Origin: Stenotrophomonas humi
GTDB lineage: Bacteria; Pseudomonadota; Gammaproteobacteria; Xanthomonadales; Xanthomonadaceae
Assembly: GCF_001431415.1 (NCBI RefSeq)
Contig: NZ_LDJI01000019.1
Location: 62,001 to 126,000 of the forward strand
Direction: 5' to 3'
DNA length: 64,000 bases
Shown here piece after piece: positions 12,648 through 33,867 of this stretch. The first letter of the stretch is position 1. Every line of letters begins with the position of its first letter. A program made the position numbers and the translations under genes. The notes beneath the pieces are model-generated. The model saw only the letters and a list, made by a program, of their open reading frames with translations, was not told the DNA's origin and searched no databases.

Positions 12648-13634
<987 letters not shown>

Positions 13635-27857: not shown

Positions 27858-29321
27858 CTACAGGCCAGCAGCGGCCAGCCTTCGCTCTACGGCATCAAGC
27901 CGATGCGCAAGCCCGCGCGCAATGAAGGCCAGCAGCTCATCCATCCGGAAGCTGTATCGGTCGCCAGCGGTTCGATGCTCCTGCACCACTTCGCCTTCAT
28001 CGCCCAGCACCTCCAGAAGCTCGTCCCACGCGTCGTAGCAGATGAACCCACGGGCGAACGGATCGAGTCCATGCGACCGCATGACCTCGATAGCGCGTTG
28101 CACGGTTAGGCCGATATGCTCCCGGGCAGCCTCGCCCTTGGCGCCGACCATTTCCAGCCACTTATAGGCGCCGATCTCCCCGCCCAGCTCGATGGCTGCG
28201 GCAAGCTCTGCGGCAGTCAGCGGACGAACCGGCGTCTTCTCCCGGGCATCCGAAGTGTTGATCGTGCCGGTCCCGGCATAGACAACTGAAAAGCGCGCGC
28301 TTGCGGTGCCTGCGCTGTAAAGGTTGTCATCGCTCTGGTAGAGAGGGCCATTGAATAGGAAGCCATCGGATACCAATCGGAAGCGGCGACTGAAATTAAA
28401 CGCGGAGACTTCAAGAAATCCCGCGGCGTTACGGTTCGCGATGTAGCCGTTCCGGTCGGTCGCGGTACCGTACCCGGCTCCGACATCGATTACAGGCACG
28501 TCCAGGTTGTCGTCGTAGAAGACAAATCGAGAGGAGTTCCCCCGCAGACTCACCGCGCCTGTGATCGAGCCCCCCGTCTTGTCGTACTTTCCCGCAAGCG
28601 CAGACGCATCGGCTTTTGTAGCAGGGGCAATCCCTGCCCAGGCAGTGAGGTTCGCTGATGCCGGCTGCGCCCCCACATCGGCCGCACCGAGCACAACCGC
28701 CCCTGCCTTAGTGTTCACCGACTGCACTGGTGCGGCAGCTGCCGCCTCGGACACCGTGGTGTACTGCGCGTGCGGATCCGTCTGGGCTACGTGTGCGGCG
28801 ATGGCCACTGCAGCCCGAGCATCGGCCCGACCATCGGTGTAGTACAGGTTGGCCGCGCCCTCGCTCAGATCGTCCGTCGTCGCCACGCTGGTGCCGGTCT
28901 TGCGCCCCTTCGCGTCGAAGGCCGTCTTCTGCAGCGTGCCGCCGCCTCCGTCTGGAACATCGGCAAGGGCGACAGCCGGATTCCCGGCAACGCCGTCGGC
29001 GTTCTCGACCTCGATGCCCTCGCCTGCCTCAATCGTGCGCTGGTACCACTCACCATCGGCATCGCGCGTGGTGAACCCAACGCCGGCAAGCTTGGCGAGC
29101 TTCTGGATGTTCGACGGGATCTCGCGGATCAACTTCCAAAGCGTTGGAGCCATGCCGCCGGTCGAGCTATCAACCGCAGGATTCTTGATCTCGCCGAGTT
29201 TCACGATGGTTCCGTCGGGCCAGCGCAGATCACGGCCCACGGTAGCACCAGGCGTTGCCTCTCCACCGACTCGGACGACTCGCCCGAGCTGGTCCTTCAG
29301 CTTGATCTTGCTGCCGGCCAT
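27858..29321 (-). CDS. Phage tail fibre/spike with C-terminal S74 intramolecular chaperone
   Basis: This 487-residue protein ends the late operon. The N-terminal two thirds is repeat-like, fibre-forming sequence (AATKADASALAGKYDKTGGS, ITGAVSLRGNSSRFVFYDDN). The C-terminus is a Peptidase_S74 chaperone of adsorption: INTSDAREKTPVRPL contains the conserved Ser and Lys for self-cleavage, followed by GLTVQRAIEVMRSHGLDP and YDAWDE. The domain drives trimerisation and is normally cleaved off. It is expected to set host-receptor specificity. The start overlaps the Rz stop by one base. Confidence 0.9.
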   Translation of the reverse strand: MAGSKIKLKDQLGRVVRVGGEATPGATVGRDLRWPDGTIVKLGEIKNPAVDSSTGGMAPTLWKLIREIPSNIQKLAKLAGVGFTTRDADGEWYQRTIEAGEGIEVENADGVAGNPAVALADVPDGGGGTLQKTAFDAKGRKTGTSVATTDDLSEGAANLYYTDGRADARAAVAIAAHVAQTDPHAQYTTVSEAAAAAPVQSVNTKAGAVVLGAADVGAQPASANLTAWAGIAPATKADASALAGKYDKTGGSITGAVSLRGNSSRFVFYDDNLDVPVIDVGAGYGTATDRNGYIANRNAAGFLEVSAFNFSRRFRLVSDGFLFNGPLYQSDDNLYSAGTASARFSVVYAGTGTINTSDAREKTPVRPLTAAELAAAIELGGEIGAYKWLEMVGAKGEAAREHIGLTVQRAIEVMRSHGLDPFARGFICYDAWDELLEVLGDEGEVVQEHRTAGDRYSFRMDELLAFIARGLAHRLDAVERRLAAAGL

Positions 29322-29887
29322 CAGCGTGCGGTCTCCACCGCGCAGCCGGCGGCAATCACCGCATCGCGGTCAGCCTTCCAGCCGCTCCACAGCCAATCGA
29401 TCACTGCGGCATCGGCGTCGCCTGCTGCAACAATTCGTGCCGCGCTGTTGAAGCGCCCTGCGGCACTGGCTTGGACGGCATTGGGGGCAGCACCACCGGT
29501 GCCGGTTCCGGGCGCAGTACAGGACCACTGCGGCTGCAGCTGCACATCACCGCGGCGGAGAGCAGCAGCAAGATCGCCTTTGGCACGTTTCGCATCTTTG
29601 AGGGCCTCCTGGTAGCGGGTGTCGTTCTCTTGTCGGCTGGTGGCCAGCGTCTGGGATGCAGCCTTCGCCTTGGCGGCCACAGCAGCGGTGGCGTCGGCCA
29701 GGCCCTGCAGGGTTGCTGCGTGGGCAGCGTTGTCGTCGGTGTGCGCCTTGGCTTCGGCCTCGTACTTGCCCTGCCAATGCGAAGCGCCCCAGCGGTAGCC
29801 CAGCACCACCAGCGGGACGGCAAGCGCTGCGATCAGCCCCCAGCGGATCAGGTCGGCATATGGCCGCAGGGGATCGAGATTGATCAC
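29321..29887 (-). CDS. Rz: Rz-like i-spanin
   Basis: The 188-residue protein has one N-terminal membrane helix (LIRWGLIAALAVPLVVLGYR) followed by a long helical periplasmic region (ATAAVAAKAKAASQTLATSR), the layout of Rz inner-membrane spanins that fuse inner and outer membrane in the last step of lysis. It contains, in another frame, an embedded Rz1 gene, strongly supporting the call. It follows the holin-like gene by a four-base overlap. Confidence 0.85.
   Translation of the reverse strand: MINLDPLRPYADLIRWGLIAALAVPLVVLGYRWGASHWQGKYEAEAKAHTDDNAAHAATLQGLADATAAVAAKAKAASQTLATSRQENDTRYQEALKDAKRAKGDLAAALRRGDVQLQPQWSCTAPGTGTGGAAPNAVQASAAGRFNSAARIVAAGDADAAVIDWLWSGWKADRDAVIAAGCAVETAR
29401..29595 (-). 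CDS. Rz1: Rz1-like o-spanin lipoprotein, nested in Rz
   Basis: ATG 29595 opens a 64-residue frame inside Rz: RNVPKAILLLLSAAVMCSCS forms a lipoprotein signal with Cys at the end of an MCSC lipobox, then a proline-rich mature part (GPVLRPEPAPVVLPPMPSKP). Proline-rich, short and outer-membrane-anchored is the Rz1 pattern, and nesting within Rz is characteristic of lambda-like phages. It ends before Rz does. Confidence 0.83.
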   Translation of the reverse strand: MRNVPKAILLLLSAAVMCSCSRSGPVLRPEPAPVVLPPMPSKPVPQGASTARHELLQQATPMPQ

Positions 29888-30177
29888 TGCGGCACCTCGA
29901 TGTTGTGCTTCTTCAGCTCGAACTCCAGCCGCATGATTCGCATCGTCAGCTCGTAGACCTTCGTCTCAGCTTCGCGGCGGGCCTTGCGTTCTTCGTCCAG
30001 TCCCGTTTCCAGCGTGACGAGCCGCGCCTCCTGGGACGCAATGCGCTCACCCAACTGGCCGATCAATCGGTCGTTTGCCTTGGCCTCAGGCGACAAGAAG
30101 CGATCCCATGCCATCTTGCCCAGCAGGAAGAGAACGCCAAGGCCGCTGCCCACGCCCCACATGTTCGTGTCTTCCAT
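29884..30177 (-). CDS. Holin-like or lysis-associated small membrane protein
   Basis: The 97-residue product has one N-terminal hydrophobic segment (MWGVGSGLGVLFLLGKMAWD) followed by a long charged coiled coil (ERIASQEARLVTLETGLDEE). It lies between endolysin and Rz with one- to four-base overlaps, the place of a holin. A single helix plus coiled coil is unusual for classical holins but seen in phage lysis cassettes; an accessory lysis role is the alternative. Confidence 0.6.
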   Translation of the reverse strand: MEDTNMWGVGSGLGVLFLLGKMAWDRFLSPEAKANDRLIGQLGERIASQEARLVTLETGLDEERKARREAETKVYELTMRIMRLEFELKKHNIEVPQ

Positions 30178-30665
30178 CAGTCGCGCACCTCGCCACCGGC
30201 TTGGCGATACACGTCCAGCAGGCGGTCCAACTTCTGCTCATGCTGGCCATAACCGGCGCCTGGCAGGCTCGCCCAGATGTTCCGCACTTTGGCGATAGCC
30301 TCTGTGATCTTGCCAGCCTGGATCAGAGGCAGCGCCCGCCTTTCGCGGATCTGCTGCAGCGCGATCAGGTCTTGGCTCAACGGCGAGAAGTCGCGCAGGT
30401 TGAGCGTCTTGCGGTAGGCGTCGTAGTAGCGGCGCAGCAGCTGGTAGCGTCCGGCAGCCGTGGACTGGATGCCGAGCTTAGGCAAATCGACCAACACGCG
30501 CGGGTGATCAGCGTAGCTGCGGAACAGCTGGCCGCCGACGATTACGTCGTATCCGCGGTCCCGCGTCGGCTGCCTGCCGTTATCCGTGCCCTCCGACCAG
30601 GCGAGCATCTGGAGGAACGCTGTGACGTTGCGCCCCCCTGCTGCGGTCTCTGAAATCTCGGCCAT
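30177..30665 (-). CDS. Endolysin of the lambda R type (GH104 lytic transglycosylase)
   Basis: The 162-residue protein closely follows lambda R: FLQMLAWSEGTDNGRQPTRD with the catalytic Glu, RGYDVIVGGQLFRSYADHPR, STAAGRYQLLRRYYDAYRK and NIWASLPGAGYGQHE. It cleaves peptidoglycan by transglycosylation, leaving 1,6-anhydro ends. No signal peptide is present, so export depends on a holin. It is separated from the upstream gene by 71 bases, unlike the tightly packed genes downstream. Confidence 0.95.
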   Translation of the reverse strand: MAEISETAAGGRNVTAFLQMLAWSEGTDNGRQPTRDRGYDVIVGGQLFRSYADHPRVLVDLPKLGIQSTAAGRYQLLRRYYDAYRKTLNLRDFSPLSQDLIALQQIRERRALPLIQAGKITEAIAKVRNIWASLPGAGYGQHEQKLDRLLDVYRQAGGEVRD

Positions 30666-30736
30666 CTGTCTGCATGCCCCTGTTGGATTGGGGACATGCT
30701 GAGCTCACAGAGAAGGGGTTCAACGGGTGCTAGACG

Positions 30737-31558
30737 CTAGCTCGTAGGCGCGAAGACTAGGCCACGCAGGTAGTTCGGATCACTGAAGAAGGCGCCGACA
30801 AAATGCCCCGTGCGAGCATCAAACTCGAACGATCTCGCGACGGCTCCATCGATACCCTTCAAATTCAGGACATTTCCCTCAACAAACCAAAATGCCAAGT
30901 CCTGAGGCAATGAGGCACCCTGACCACCCAAAGTCCCAACAAGCGAACCATCTGAATTGAACTCAATCGCCACCCTGTGCGGCGACCTCAATTCAATAGA
31001 TGTGTACACACCGAATTTCTGCCCAAGCAAGTGATCCCTAATATTGCTCTCTACCGATTTTTGGCGGAATACGGATACAACCGCCTTATATGCAGCCACC
31101 TTGACCTGCAATTTTTTATTCTCTCCCCGCAGCTTTTCAGCCTCCCCAACATGAGTCGCAAGCGCGCTTCGCAAGGCAATGACATCCTTCATAGGAAGGA
31201 CTTCAATATTCTTCGAAGCAAGCTGACGCGCGACACTCTTGCGTTCGACCCACAGATTGAACCTCTCTACCCCCATACCCAAAATCGGCCACAAGAATGC
31301 AAACAGAAGCGCAGCCCCCAGCGGAATCCAGAGCATATGTAGCTGCGATTCATTGGCATTTGCGGTGATCGCGGAATCGAGGTATTTGAATTTTTCCTCG
31401 ATTGACATTCCAGATAGCAAGACCATCACTACTCGGTGATTTACTAGAAGCCAAGTCAATGCAAATGACCCCAGCAGCGGATTCGATAGCCTCGCCTTTA
31501 CGGCGTCCTTGAAGCCTTCCGTAGCCTCGTCCACCGCCCCTTGCACATCCTTTGCCAT
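30737..31558 (-). CDS. Unknown membrane protein with coiled coil and C-terminal sensor-like domain (273 aa)
   Basis: I do not recognise this family. The N-terminus is amphipathic and charged (DEATEGFKDAVKARLSNPLL), followed by two membrane helices (GSFALTWLLVNHRVVMVLLS and LWIPLGAALLFAFLWPILGM), a coiled coil around residues 125-165 (EKLRGENKKLQVKVAAYKAV) and a beta-rich C-terminal domain (VYTSIELRSPHRVAIEFNSD, GHFVGAFFSDPNYLRGLVFA). It is lower in GC than the phage structural genes and sits between virion and lysis genes with the toxin-antitoxin-chaperone cassette, so it looks like a lysogenic-conversion gene. Membrane anchoring plus a coiled coil and a cytoplasmic tail is compatible with exclusion or defence, but this is speculation. 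Confidence 0.72.
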   Translation of the reverse strand: MAKDVQGAVDEATEGFKDAVKARLSNPLLGSFALTWLLVNHRVVMVLLSGMSIEEKFKYLDSAITANANESQLHMLWIPLGAALLFAFLWPILGMGVERFNLWVERKSVARQLASKNIEVLPMKDVIALRSALATHVGEAEKLRGENKKLQVKVAAYKAVVSVFRQKSVESNIRDHLLGQKFGVYTSIELRSPHRVAIEFNSDGSLVGTLGGQGASLPQDLAFWFVEGNVLNLKGIDGAVARSFEFDARTGHFVGAFFSDPNYLRGLVFAPTS

Positions 31559-31610
31559 GCTCGCCCCTGCTTTCCATTAGATGTTCGGATTCTAGGCTGA
31601 ACCTGAATAG

Positions 31611-31639
31611 AAAAGAAGAAACCCCGCTCTCGCGGGGTT
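31611..31639 (-). terminator. Terminator, minus strand
   Basis: AACCCCGC pairs with GCGGGGTT around a four-base loop (31620-31639) and on the minus strand is followed by TTCTTCTTTT. It lies just after the orphan gene fragment ending at 31647. Confidence 0.8.
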
Positions 31640-31646
31640 CGTCGTT

Positions 31647-31826
31647 TCAGGCGGCTTTGGCCAGAAGTGGATCGGCTAGTTTCACCAACTCCCCCTGCAA
31701 TTCCTCCTTCCAGAGGTCCACCGTATTGGCCCAGTCGTCGGCGACGTATTGACCGAGCTCGGCCAGGTGATGGGCCCTCGCCTTCTCGTCTTTCAGGGCG
31801 TGGAACAGCGCCCCAAAGAAAAACCC
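31647..31826 (-). pseudogene. Orphan C-terminal gene fragment (~58 codons)
   Basis: One minus-strand frame ends at TGA (31647-31649) and reads ALFHALKDEKARAHHLAELG, QYVADDWANTVDLWKEELQG, ELVKLADPLLAKAA, clearly protein-like and helical. No usable start codon lies upstream: the frame runs straight into the terminator hairpin of the chaperone gene at 31815-31843. It is therefore the surviving tail of a gene whose 5' part was replaced when the neighbouring cassette arrived. I do not recognise the parent family. Confidence 0.6.
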
Positions 31827-31843
31827 CGCCAGTCGGCGGGGCC
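31815..31843 (-). terminator. Terminator of the toxin-antitoxin-chaperone operon
   Basis: On the minus strand CCCCGCC pairs with GGCGGGG around a four-base loop and is followed by TTTTTCTTT. It begins 16 bases after the stop of the SecB-like gene. Confidence 0.82.
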
Positions 31844-31858
31844 TTTAGGAAATTGACG

Positions 31859-32431
31859 CTATTCCTTGCTTGTCTTCTTGGATGGCTTCTTTTGGGCACC
31901 TTTCTTCCCAGAAGCCTCTGCCTCCGCCTGACGCAGCCTCCTCTGCTCCCGAAGATCTTCAATTTCCTCTTCGGTCATCAAGAACTGCTCGCGCAAAATA
32001 TCTTCGCGATGCTCCTTGGTGTACCGGATTGCAACATCAGCAGGCTCAAGAAGGATCGTCGGGACCTTAGCAACCTCCCAAGGCGATCGAGCGGTAATGC
32101 TTGCAATCATGTCGCGTACCGACGAAAACAAAATGCGCGCAACATTGACGCCCACTACGCGAGGGTTGAATGCCCCCTTGTAAGCTTCCCTGCACCCCTC
32201 AGCATCAAGAGTAAAAGAAGCGAACGCAGAGATTTCGATCACATACGGGTACGATTCGTCGCTCTGCGCGACATTCAATGTTGCAAAATTGTTCTTGTCC
32301 AGATCATAGAAAACAGCTGCTTCTGCGGTAACAGGCAGATCTTCGCGCAGCATTTCCTTCGCATTCGGCCGGGCTCGAATTACGACGTCTGTATAGACAA
32401 CCTGATCGATCTGAAGCGGACTCTTCTTCAT
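31859..32431 (-). CDS. SecB-like chaperone of a toxin-antitoxin-chaperone (TAC) system
   Basis: The 190-residue protein has the SecB-fold pattern: an N-terminal strand (QIDQVVYTDVVIRARPNAKE), a central strand pair (SYPYVIEISAFASFTLDAEG) and the helix NVARILFSSVRDMIASITAR, the counterpart of SecB's NILFPYARECITSMVSRG, followed by a Pro-rich turn (VAKVPTILLEP). The C-terminus is a lysine-rich tail. In TAC systems such as M. tuberculosis HigB1-HigA1-Rv1957 a SecB-like protein folds and protects the antitoxin. Gene order toxin-antitoxin-chaperone and four-base overlap with the antitoxin support that. General SecB of the host is expected elsewhere. Confidence 0.85.
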   Translation of the reverse strand: MKKSPLQIDQVVYTDVVIRARPNAKEMLREDLPVTAEAAVFYDLDKNNFATLNVAQSDESYPYVIEISAFASFTLDAEGCREAYKGAFNPRVVGVNVARILFSSVRDMIASITARSPWEVAKVPTILLEPADVAIRYTKEHREDILREQFLMTEEEIEDLREQRRLRQAEAEASGKKGAQKKPSKKTSKE

Positions 32432-32970
32432 GCGGCCATACCGAATTCAAGCGCTTGGTAGTTCTGATCATTTGCACACAAGAAATTGATCTCATCCGAG
32501 ACCCTTCCGCCACGGGCTGACCTCCCATCATGCAGCCAGAATTCGCGATAGCGACTCTGGCAAACATCTTCCTCATCGTTATGCCCTAGGTCGGCGCTTG
32601 CGTAGATGATCGCTGGCGAAATTTCCAGGCGCTCTTCGCGGCGAAGCCTGAAAGCCAGGCAGTCGTCATGCTCCGGCACGAATTGGAATTCCTCCTCGTT
32701 CAATCGAACGGAAAGGTGAGCTTCGCCCCCCAACGCAGACACATAACGGAAGACGGACGACAAAAGCATGTCGCTGCGCGCCTCCATCTTCGACACGGCC
32801 GCCTGACTGGTTCCGAGGAGCCCAGCCATATCCGCCTGCGACAGGCAGGATGCATTGCGAAGTTCCGCCAACGGAAAAGCTGCTCGCAGCTCCCGATAGC
32901 GCTTCTCAGCTTTTACACGCACCGCTTCCGGTCTGGAAGCCAAGAAATCATCAAAATTCATATTTGCCAT
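32428..32970 (-). CDS. higA: HigA-like antitoxin with C-terminal chaperone-addiction extension
   Basis: The 180-residue protein has a Xre-type helix-turn-helix at about residues 35-90 (RNASCLSQADMAGLLGTSQA, AVSKMEARSDM) of the HigA antitoxin group. Unlike ordinary HigA (about 100 residues) it carries some 90 extra C-terminal residues (FQFVPEHDDCLAFRLRREER, ending YQALEFGMAA), the position of the ChAD region that makes TAC antitoxins depend on their SecB-like chaperone. It should bind toxin and repress the operon through the palindrome at 33410-33425. It starts two bases after the toxin stop and overlaps the chaperone by four. Confidence 0.87.
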   Translation of the reverse strand: MANMNFDDFLASRPEAVRVKAEKRYRELRAAFPLAELRNASCLSQADMAGLLGTSQAAVSKMEARSDMLLSSVFRYVSALGGEAHLSVRLNEEEFQFVPEHDDCLAFRLRREERLEISPAIIYASADLGHNDEEDVCQSRYREFWLHDGRSARGGRVSDEINFLCANDQNYQALEFGMAA

Positions 32971-32972
32971 GA

Positions 32973-33404
32973 TCAGCGCCCCCGCCCTTTTCCACTTCCC
33001 CGTGGTACCACTTTCCCTGAACCCCCTGCCTGAGAGGCCTTCAAGCCGGCCTCATGTTGCTTAAGTAGCCCTTTAGCTTTCTTGATGTACTTCGGATACC
33101 AGAGCTTTTCGCCCATTGGCACCTTGTCACCACCTACGAGCAGAATGGCGTTCTGCTGCGTATCAAATACGTAGATGATCCGGAACTGCTTCCGCTCGAA
33201 CTTGATACGAAGCTCCTTGAGCTTCGACAACCTCTCGCTCTTCGGCGAACTCTTGTCCTCCAATGTTCCCGAATGAGGGCGATCAAGAGCTGGTCCGAAC
33301 TCCCGAAGCAACTTGATCTTTGCGATGACTTCAGTCTCTTCATCCGGCGTCAATCCCCTGATGAATTCCTGCACTTCGGGAGTTAGCGTGACGTTCCATG
33401 CCAT
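32973..33404 (-). CDS. higB: HigB-like RelE-superfamily mRNA interferase toxin
   Basis: From ATG 33404 the toxin has 143 residues. WNVTLTPEVQEFIRGLTPDE begins the RelE/HigB fold, followed by LREFGPALDRPHSGTLED, LKELRIKFERKQFRIIYVFD and ILLVGGDKVP, the strands carrying the catalytic basic residues. The C-terminus has a basic extension (GSGKVVPRGSGKGRGR). Such toxins cleave mRNA on the ribosome. An upstream in-frame ATG (33509) would add 35 residues across the operator and is unlikely. Toxin-first order is typical for higBA. Confidence 0.88.
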   Translation of the reverse strand: MAWNVTLTPEVQEFIRGLTPDEETEVIAKIKLLREFGPALDRPHSGTLEDKSSPKSERLSKLKELRIKFERKQFRIIYVFDTQQNAILLVGGDKVPMGEKLWYPKYIKKAKGLLKQHEAGLKASQAGGSGKVVPRGSGKGRGR

Positions 33405-33409
33405 GAAAT

Positions 33410-33425
33410 ATAACTCAGGAGTTAT
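33410..33425. promoter_or_regulatory. Palindromic operator upstream of higBA-secB
   Basis: ATAACTC-AG-GAGTTAT is a perfect inverted repeat with seven-base arms ending five bases before the higB start codon. A likely -10 (TATATT on the minus strand) overlaps it. It is the expected autoregulation site for the HigA-like antitoxin. Confidence 0.72.
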
Positions 33426-33427
33426 GC

Positions 33428-33449
33428 GAACGAAACATGTGTCTCGTTC
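33428..33449. promoter_or_regulatory. Second inverted repeat in the higBA promoter
   Basis: GAACGA and TCGTTC are separated by ten bases, immediately upstream of the main palindrome and around the expected -35. It could be a second operator or a repressor contact for another factor. Confidence 0.4.
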
Positions 33450-33624
33450 ATTCTGTGCGATCGATTCACTTAGCGCGCCCAGGCTTCCCCCCTGGTGCAA
33501 ACAGATCATAGCATTGTGAAGAAATCATCACATTTCATTACAAATCATATAGTTGTGCGTGTGATGCGGCCAACACCTCCACAGCCCCTTGCAAGACTTC
33601 CCACCTTGCAAGCCGCAACTTCTT

Positions 33625-33668
33625 AGCCCTGCTACCATCCCGGTCAACGGATAGGAGCAGGGCTTTTT
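33625..33668 (+). terminator. Terminator-like hairpin ahead of a plus-strand gene
   Basis: AGCCCTGCT (33625-33633) pairs perfectly with AGCAGGGCT (33656-33664) and is followed by TTTTT. It sits directly before the GTG start of the 65-aa gene and contains its ribosome-binding site (GGAG) in the loop side, so it could also act as an attenuator. Confidence 0.55.
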
Positions 33669-33669
33669 C

Positions 33670-33867
33670 GTGAAGGACTGGACCAAAACCAACTACGGTA
33701 CCCCGAAGTCCTGGGACGAGATCCAGCGGGAGAAGCTGGACGCGGAGCTTGACCGTGTGATCGATGGCCCCGGCCCCCGAATTTCCACGCTCGTCATCGG
33801 ATTCTTCGTGGCGGCCATTGTCACCGCCGCCTGTTTCATTGGCCTGATTTACCTTCTTCTTCGCTGA
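33670..33867 (+). CDS. Small single-helix membrane protein, 65 aa
   Basis: GTG 33670 starts a protein with a polar N-terminus (KDWTKTNYGTPKSWDEIQRE) and one C-terminal membrane helix (RISTLVIGFFVAAIVTAACF). It is on the opposite strand to all surrounding late genes, and its end overlaps the end of the 934-aa virion gene by 32 bases. A GGAG lies 12 bases upstream within a terminator-like hairpin. I recognise no family; lysogenic expression as a moron is plausible. Confidence 0.6.
   Translation: MKDWTKTNYGTPKSWDEIQREKLDAELDRVIDGPGPRISTLVIGFFVAAIVTAACFIGLIYLLLR

Follow-up and report, generated by a model that had tools for sequence, protein, structure and literature searches.

A cargo gene between the virion and lysis genes of a Stenotrophomonas humi prophage encodes a predicted membrane protein whose N-terminal part belongs to an uncharacterised phage and plasmid family

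Prophage cargo is a rich source of defence genes, and the 273-aa protein presented in this work can be set beside several described systems. PdpSau is reported as a 278-aa membrane protein of a Staphylococcus aureus prophage, whose gene is linked to holin/amidase genes and which causes abortive infection with changed membrane polarity and permeability (PMC10127798). Its size, position and design, with an N-terminal membrane anchor and a cytoplasmic C-terminus, are similar to those of our protein; compared by description, its single membrane helix and its OB-fold-like, positively charged C-terminus are not (PMC10127798). By analogy, PdpSau is the closest worked precedent in position and design. 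P22 SieA and HK97 gp15 are described as prophage-encoded inner-membrane proteins (predicted for gp15), like the candidate studied here; SieA, again compared by description, has three predicted transmembrane domains in 162-164 aa, unlike our protein (PMC10883804). SNIPE (DUF4041 and GIY-YIG) is reported in the inner membrane, where it probably contacts tape-measure proteins during injection; it shares with our protein the order of an inner-membrane anchor, a middle domain and a cytoplasmic C-terminal module, but is single-pass, with a periplasmic N-terminus and a nuclease domain (PMC13190303). As described in these sources, SieA and SNIPE are precedents for a block or a cut during DNA entry at the inner membrane (PMC10883804, PMC13190303). 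The S-2TMbeta effectors Cap15 (CBASS) and OptE (Panoptes) are described with two N-terminal membrane helices and a C-terminal beta-rich domain, likewise (PMC12657218), whereas our protein has a long helix between the membrane and beta parts. Identity with Cap15 or OptE was rejected, as Pfam gave no match and hhalign reached 0.5-0.8% against five Cap15-family proteins. Indeed, Cap15_CD_rec (PF18153) matched neither the 273-aa protein nor anything in its own genome, and no SMODS or mCpol (the cognate nucleotide cyclase) was matched in this genome, a draft of 91 contigs.

The gene lies in a 64,000-nucleotide stretch of S. humi DNA, hereafter the window (Table 1). The location and the 273-aa size given in the original prediction are exact; the coding strand is the minus strand, on which the ORF call starts with ATG and runs over 273 codons, and the plus strand read in frame is interrupted by stops. 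The host prophage is podovirus-like, with terminase, portal and capsid-type genes (ORFs named by eye) on the same strand, and the same element is present in IMG/VR as a 37.6-kb viral contig. The 273-aa gene is co-directional with the late genes.

Table 1. Features of the cargo slot and of the 273-aa gene, in window coordinates
Feature	Position	Strand	Basis and remarks
Variable cargo block: TA-type genes, remnant and 273-aa gene	30728..33624	.	Alignment to L024 and L025
Toxin, Gp49/HigB-like (PF05973, 2.5e-15)	32973-33509	-	Pfam; upstream of 273-aa gene
HTH antitoxin (HTH_37, 7.3e-6, slightly below family cut-off)	32428-32970	-	Pfam; upstream
Putative chaperone, 190 aa	31859-32431	-	Position and eye; upstream
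TA-type genes, separate cargo upstream of 273-aa gene	31859..33509	-	Pfam, PHROGs, SecB model
54-codon orphan 3' end of a different frame, ending in LVKLADPLLAKAA and a stop	31647..31811	-	Between TA module and 64-bp block
64-bp terminator/promoter-like block	31586..31649	-	61/64 identical in L027/L028
273-aa protein: 2TM, long helix, beta domain	30737..31558	-	ORF call and full-length homologue L028:15058-15861
Membrane segment 1, weakly hydrophobic (residues 28-46)	31421..31477	-	Hydropathy
Membrane segment 2 (residues 75-93)	31280..31336	-	Hydropathy
Long helix, presumed coiled coil (residues 123-165)	31064..31192	-	Low-confidence AlphaFold2 model; coiled coil by eye
C-terminal beta-rich domain, predicted (residues 182-273)	30740..31015	-	AlphaFold2; common to window protein and L028
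Endolysin, 97-aa protein, Rz-like spanin, S74 tail fibre	27858..30665	-	PHROGs/Pfam; bound slot downstream

A search with a 934-aa virion protein found eight related viral loci, the prophage's own contig included. L024 and L025, the closest relatives found, both lack the 2.9-kb cargo block: on the virion side their alignment to the window stops at 33625/33628 (80%/78% identity) and on the lysis side it resumes at 30727 (85-88% identity), with no alignment inside the block, which judging from these alignments is swapped as a whole. In the seven loci other than the own contig, the slot holds a homologue of the 273-aa protein in two (L027 and L028, which carry the same homologue and are probably one phage) and other genes in four (L024, L025, L026 and L030); L029 ends before the slot. 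Moreover, L026 and L028 share flanks of 88% identity upstream and 94% downstream, and differ in content from the terminator to the presumed holin (a by-eye assignment), where L028 has the homologue and L026 a different, opposite-strand ORF. The original prediction that the gene had been inserted is borne out by both sets of flanks, 78-88% identical in the two relatives without the gene and 88%/94% in the second pair. Its own counter-case, a core gene conserved in all related phages, is contradicted by the homologue in 2/7 loci and other genes in 4/7.

The lower GC that had been pointed out is equally clear, with a GC of 0.511, the lowest of 25 prophage genes (z = -5.2 against 21 core prophage genes), and a GC3 of 0.573 (z = -4.3 against the same 21). 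Given the slot variation together with the low GC, the 273-aa gene is prophage cargo and not core, moron-type by presence/absence and composition. The homologue in L028 occupies the same slot, has both the N- and the C-terminal part and is 29% identical to the window protein; on this comparison, a same-slot homologue with both parts is an observation that seems more than chance.

The slots without the homologue hold genes of other kinds. In L024 there is a GIY-YIG-like frame (by eye) with other ORFs; this frame (L024:14295-15005) starts with the first residues of the window endolysin, MAEISET, and an endolysin frame with another start comes after it, an arrangement that a homing endonuclease inserting at the start of the endolysin would leave. 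In L025 a DUF6338 membrane protein (12979-13626, 6e-17) is a candidate for a further cargo gene; no link of DUF6338 to phage was found in the papers searched.

The gene had also been placed next to a toxin-antitoxin-chaperone (TAC) cassette. The toxin and the HTH antitoxin are recognised, and the third gene as a SecB-like chaperone is not: its 190-aa product had no Pfam match, and a SecB model used at E <= 10 found one SecB only, elsewhere in the genome, so that the label "chaperone" rests on position and inspection by eye. This neighbour has a GC of 0.513 and a GC3 lower than that of the 273-aa gene. The 273-aa protein might thus be read as a fourth component or an immunity part of the upstream toxin-antitoxin(-chaperone) module, being adjacent, on the same strand and similar in GC (0.511 vs 0.513-0.552 for the TA genes). 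We regard this as highly improbable, since 300 bp with two hairpin terminators (one by scan, one by eye) and a gene remnant separate it from the TA genes, and since the L027/L028 homologue has no recognised TA module beside it in the ORF lists; the gene therefore does not look co-operonic with them. The remnant is the orphan frame of Table 1, for which no good match was found among the compared loci except in copies of the window prophage. It is apparently what is left of an earlier cargo gene, beside a terminator. Its position between the TA genes and the 64-bp block suggests that the 273-aa gene and the TA genes were acquired separately.

The 64-bp block upstream of the gene has a 9-bp terminator hairpin in its first half (31640-31619), followed by a -10-like hexamer, TAGAAT, at 31594-31589 (read by eye); no good -35 was found in the block, and no terminator directly downstream of the gene. 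The 61/64 identity of the block with L027/L028 contrasts with the 29% identity of the proteins. The first 30 nt of the block recur in L026 and 21 nt in L025, both without the gene, and the promoter-like half, as an exact 22-nt pattern, is found in three viral contigs, all with the gene, one of them the own prophage. The arrangement fits a terminator of the old unit followed by a predicted promoter of the cargo.

The position of the gene, directly upstream of the endolysin here and of the presumed holin in L028 on the same strand, raises the possibility of a lysis-timing or holin-partner protein belonging to the lysis cassette. The downstream endolysin matches phrog_90 at 5e-57, and in the same PHROGs search, where endolysin and Rz are matched, the 273-aa protein gave no match to lysis families (holin, spanin). 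Unrelated genes replace the 273-aa gene in relatives with similar lysis genes, and its N-terminal relatives lie away from lysis genes in other phages and occur also in filamentous phages. Filamentous phages do not lyse their hosts. A lysis role is thus very unlikely.

Hydropathy recovers the two membrane helices that had been proposed for the protein. Segment 1 stands within a family motif seen in alignments, R-x-x-x-P-x-x-G-S/A-F...W...N-W/H; it is below the hydropathy threshold in 6/16 family members (both segments pass in 10/16), so that some members may lack a two-pass membrane half. The balance of K/R to D/E is 3/4 before segment 1, 2/4 in the loop between the segments and 5 to 2 within 25 residues after segment 2, a charge distribution which, by the positive-inside rule, suggests an N-in/C-in topology. 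The AlphaFold2 model of the window protein and L028 places helices at 72-113 and 123-165 and then seven short strands at 196-266, and with a mean pLDDT of only 48.5 this assignment of helices and strands is indicative only. Seven strands were obtained again with the C-terminal part alone (mean pLDDT 45.7). The coiled coil and the beta-rich C-terminus that had also been announced therefore stand in part: a long helix and seven strands are predicted at low confidence, and the coiled coil is recognised by eye only.

The membrane half can be placed in a family. PHROGs 4780, 13369 and 22645, of unknown function, match within residues 10-119 of the window protein (E 1e-6 to 3e-9), and the L028 homologue matches phrog_4780 over residues 21-159 (1e-14). 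By these profile matches, the N-terminal part is a member of this uncharacterised phrog_4780/13369/22645 family. The likeness covers the 2TM/helix part and not the whole profile with its tail; the tails of the examined PHROG members are coiled-coil or apparently disordered, whereas that of the window protein is a predicted beta domain. No meaningful match was found in Pfam, NCBIfam or PADLOC, whose profiles of known anti-phage defence systems thus do not include the 273-aa protein, and no PDB sequence matched below E 0.04. In the papers searched, we found no published function for the family and no mention of the three PHROGs; titles and abstract openings in the literature on Cap15, Panoptes, integron cassettes and morons, and likewise on TA-chaperone modules, SSB and epsilon15 morons, contain nothing on it.

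The family is thinly spread at the level of single sequences and better seen with profiles. With tblastn at E <= 1, the protein matched 1 of 50,697 phage records and 8 of 72,556 plasmid records, all within its first 133 residues. A whole-protein search matched four of 297 genomes of the bacterial family and phrog_13369 six of the 297, the own genome included in both; the two-sequence profile (window and L028) matched three of 395 including the own, the other two in the N-terminal part only. Viral contigs were scanned with the window protein, the L028 protein and two alignments, and nothing beyond the window prophage and the L027/L028 phage came up; two scans of genome contigs gave no relatives. 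In profile comparison by hhalign, the window and L028 profile reached 98.6% against six enterobacterial and Vibrio phage and plasmid proteins, 97.7% against a Leptospira set and 94.9% against a set of L013, L015 and PE002, compared with 0.5% for the control of five Cap15-family proteins. Several candidates were discarded: a match to residues 176-248 in L004 (730-aa frame, RHS-repeat-like reading, E 3e-4) was taken as chance, and L016 (897-aa frame), L022 (1165-aa frame), L018 and L019 were set aside as probably spurious. L021 is cut by the contig end.

The settings of these relatives differ between phage groups. Both neighbours run opposite to the gene in BUCT711 and in E. coli EC.W1-9, where it lies between terminase-type and connector/tail genes, in the nin/replication region of Klebsiella KO-TP1, in a plasmid-form phage of K. 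pneumoniae and in a Klebsiella plasmid record that also carries tail-fibre and replication genes. In Klebsiella ST11-VIM1phi8.2 the nin genes lie on the other strand and a short co-directional ORF precedes the gene. Relatives in two Vibrio filamentous phages, on a Vibrio plasmid with DUF3265 and GNAT genes alongside, on Leptospira plasmids and on a Klebsiella plasmid (beside a DUF1778/GNAT pair) share the direction of one or both neighbours, which restricts the antiparallel placement to the enterobacterial phages. Viral contigs scanned with the aligned BUCT711, EC.W1-9 and KO-TP1 proteins yielded 47 loci with 35 distinct proteins of this enterobacterial clade, and by mechanical neighbour calling the gene is antiparallel to both neighbours in 39 of these loci, to one in 7 and to none in 1. 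These antiparallel settings in the enterobacterial phages fit independent expression. In the loci L055-L101 (gene at about 4001), an opposite-strand ORF of 489-491 aa follows in six of the eight whose neighbours were inspected, which is the size of the terminase following the gene in EC.W1-9, and a cargo site beside the terminase is likely there. Even close relatives in these loci diverge in about the last 45 residues.

Conservation in this clade was computed on 34 sequences, namely 33 of the 35 distinct proteins and BUCT711, the truncated L059 (100 aa) and L094 (62 aa) being left out. Mean pairwise identity is 0.78 in TM1, 0.59 in TM2 and 0.70 in the next helix, and falls towards the C-terminus to 0.47, 0.21 and 0.15; the EC.W1-9 protein, of 201 aa, has little past the membrane half and the helix. 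We infer from these identities that a shared function would reside in the membrane half and helix of the enterobacterial clade and that the tail would be the adaptable part. Between the window protein and L028 identity is 29% over the whole length and 29% over the C-terminal part; this split is thus not seen in the window's own clade.

The C-terminal domain common to the window protein and L028 carries the motifs FEFD..G.F and W..GN.L (alignment), and outside these two it was found in none of the phage, plasmid, viral and genome scans made. Its last 114 aa gave tblastn matches only at E >= 4 in one case and E 9 in the other against phages and plasmids; in 299 genomes of the order, two matches besides the own (E 0.003 and 0.009) fell in 934- and 3593-aa frames and were taken as chance. 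The structure prediction and remote-homology search that had been proposed for this domain gave the low-confidence seven-strand model and a mixed signal towards Inh/Omp19, with no Pfam match. A PDB profile search with the two C-terminal sequences found nothing below E 0.5, and a Foldseek search of PDB and BFVD with the model gave no row at E <= 0.001 (in BFVD the best, a 494-aa protein, had E 0.01 and TM 0.32); its top PDB row, 7mhw at E 0.25, is the source of the Inh lead. When 991 PDB chains were re-aligned to the model with VIA-align, in which rows within 1 Z are tied and a Z below 8 may reflect no more than a widespread arrangement, the two Inh-type chains 6iy4 (Z 5.8) and 7mhw (Z 5.3) came first, and a third row from a different protein (Z 4.6) was within the tie range of the second. 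In a single hhalign comparison, the domain matched one Inh domain with a probability of 25% (E 7.5e-4), a score reached by 0/200 shuffles and 0/153 window ORFs. Pfam searched by hmmscan, Inh (PF02974) included, gave no match for the C-terminal part up to E = 10, and a mixed profile with one Inh domain added ranked a beta-propeller chain first (E 0.0014), then C1q chains, with 7mhw at E 0.98. The Inh/Omp19 barrel is therefore kept as a tentative lead on fold, and not on function, with the balance somewhat against it. The domain resembles this barrel weakly in a low-confidence model, and unlike it would follow a long helix in one polypeptide and is predicted to lie in the cytoplasm. Inh inhibitors use a free N-terminal arm to act, which a fused Inh-type domain would lack.

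This weak likeness to protease-inhibitor barrels, together with the cargo slot, might indicate a host-directed lysogenic-conversion protein with no anti-phage role, acting on envelope stress, protease control or another fitness trait. We consider such a protein quite unlikely, given that the likeness comes from the model with pLDDT 45.7 and that Pfam, the mixed profile's preference for a beta-propeller chain and the other family members, in which no Inh-type domain was found, all speak against it.

With its own upstream block, its membrane protein and its relatives in unrelated phages and plasmids, the gene is most simply explained as a prophage-expressed protection gene. To the more precise prediction, that it is prophage-expressed moron cargo for an inner-membrane exclusion or abortive-infection protein, we give an even chance. 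Expressed from the prophage, the protein would sit in the inner membrane with both ends in the cytoplasm; its two-helix membrane half would be the working part and oligomerise via the coiled coil, and its cytoplasmic tail, here the beta domain, would detect a superinfecting phage at the inner membrane through one of its components. Upon recognition the membrane half might disturb the membrane so that the infected cell aborts, an outcome that is possible but somewhat doubtful, or else it might obstruct DNA entry, which appears rather unlikely. A membrane effector with a variable sensor is preferred because the membrane half is more conserved than the tail in the enterobacterial clade. We infer the sensor/effector split, the anti-phage role, the oligomerisation, the cytoplasmic topology and the expression from the prophage.

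A pure superinfection exclusion in the style of P22 SieA or HK97 gp15 would block DNA entry with no cell death, the coiled coil and tail binding ejection or tape-measure proteins of incoming phages. A membrane protein with a presumed cytoplasmic coiled coil, from a podovirus-like prophage, would suit such a role, as does SNIPE, reported in the inner membrane and probably in contact with tape-measure proteins at injection (PMC13190303). It is nevertheless unlikely, because the family is also found in filamentous phages, on the Vibrio plasmid beside DUF3265/GNAT and on Leptospira plasmids, which makes a target limited to short-tailed ejection proteins implausible, and because the three transmembrane domains of SieA in 162-164 aa are unlike the window protein (PMC10883804).

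Under the preferred reading of a protection gene, the family shows tails of several kinds: besides the predicted beta domain, which may be a barrel of protease-inhibitor type, there are hypervariable coiled coils, C-termini that look winged-helix-like by eye, and a Vibrio tail that matches the SSB tip. The family might represent an unrecognised class of single-gene phage and plasmid immune proteins, with a conserved two-helix membrane effector and interchangeable cytoplasmic "bait" tails; each tail would respond to its own kind of phage activity, and all would set off one common membrane response. We hold this wider proposal to be speculative and doubtful. The winged-helix-like C-termini belong to membrane-half relatives in L013, L015, L009 and L010 (the last two on Leptospira plasmids), and Pfam gave no winged-helix match for L009 or L015. 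In L008:5962-6747, on the Vibrio parahaemolyticus plasmid NZ_CP133902.1, a membrane-half relative ends in an SSB-tip-like sequence, its residues 244-261 matching the C-terminal tip of SSB (PHROG SSB family, E 5e-5). The C-terminal tip of SSB is the peptide that recruits replication and repair proteins, and the L008 protein may be an SSB-tail mimic anchored in the membrane. An SSB-type tip is absent from the C-terminus of all 47 viral relatives in the enterobacterial clade.

The type of cargo gene is known; the protein is a variant, as yet uncharacterised, whose predicted beta domain has been seen in two phages so far. The 273-aa gene links an unannotated protein with a family that turns up in plasmids and in phages of unrelated types. 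Should the sensor/effector split hold, exchanging tails among members could be used to find out which target each one recognises, and a single assay would then open a whole group of "hypothetical" phage genes to testing. Further cargo in this phage group can be sought in the same slot, between virion and lysis genes. At the virion edge of the slot the window has a 65-aa opposite-strand ORF (33670-33867, plus strand) with one membrane helix by eye, which has close counterparts in L024 and L025 (12660-12857); opposite-strand ORFs of similar size are present in L026, L028 and L030.
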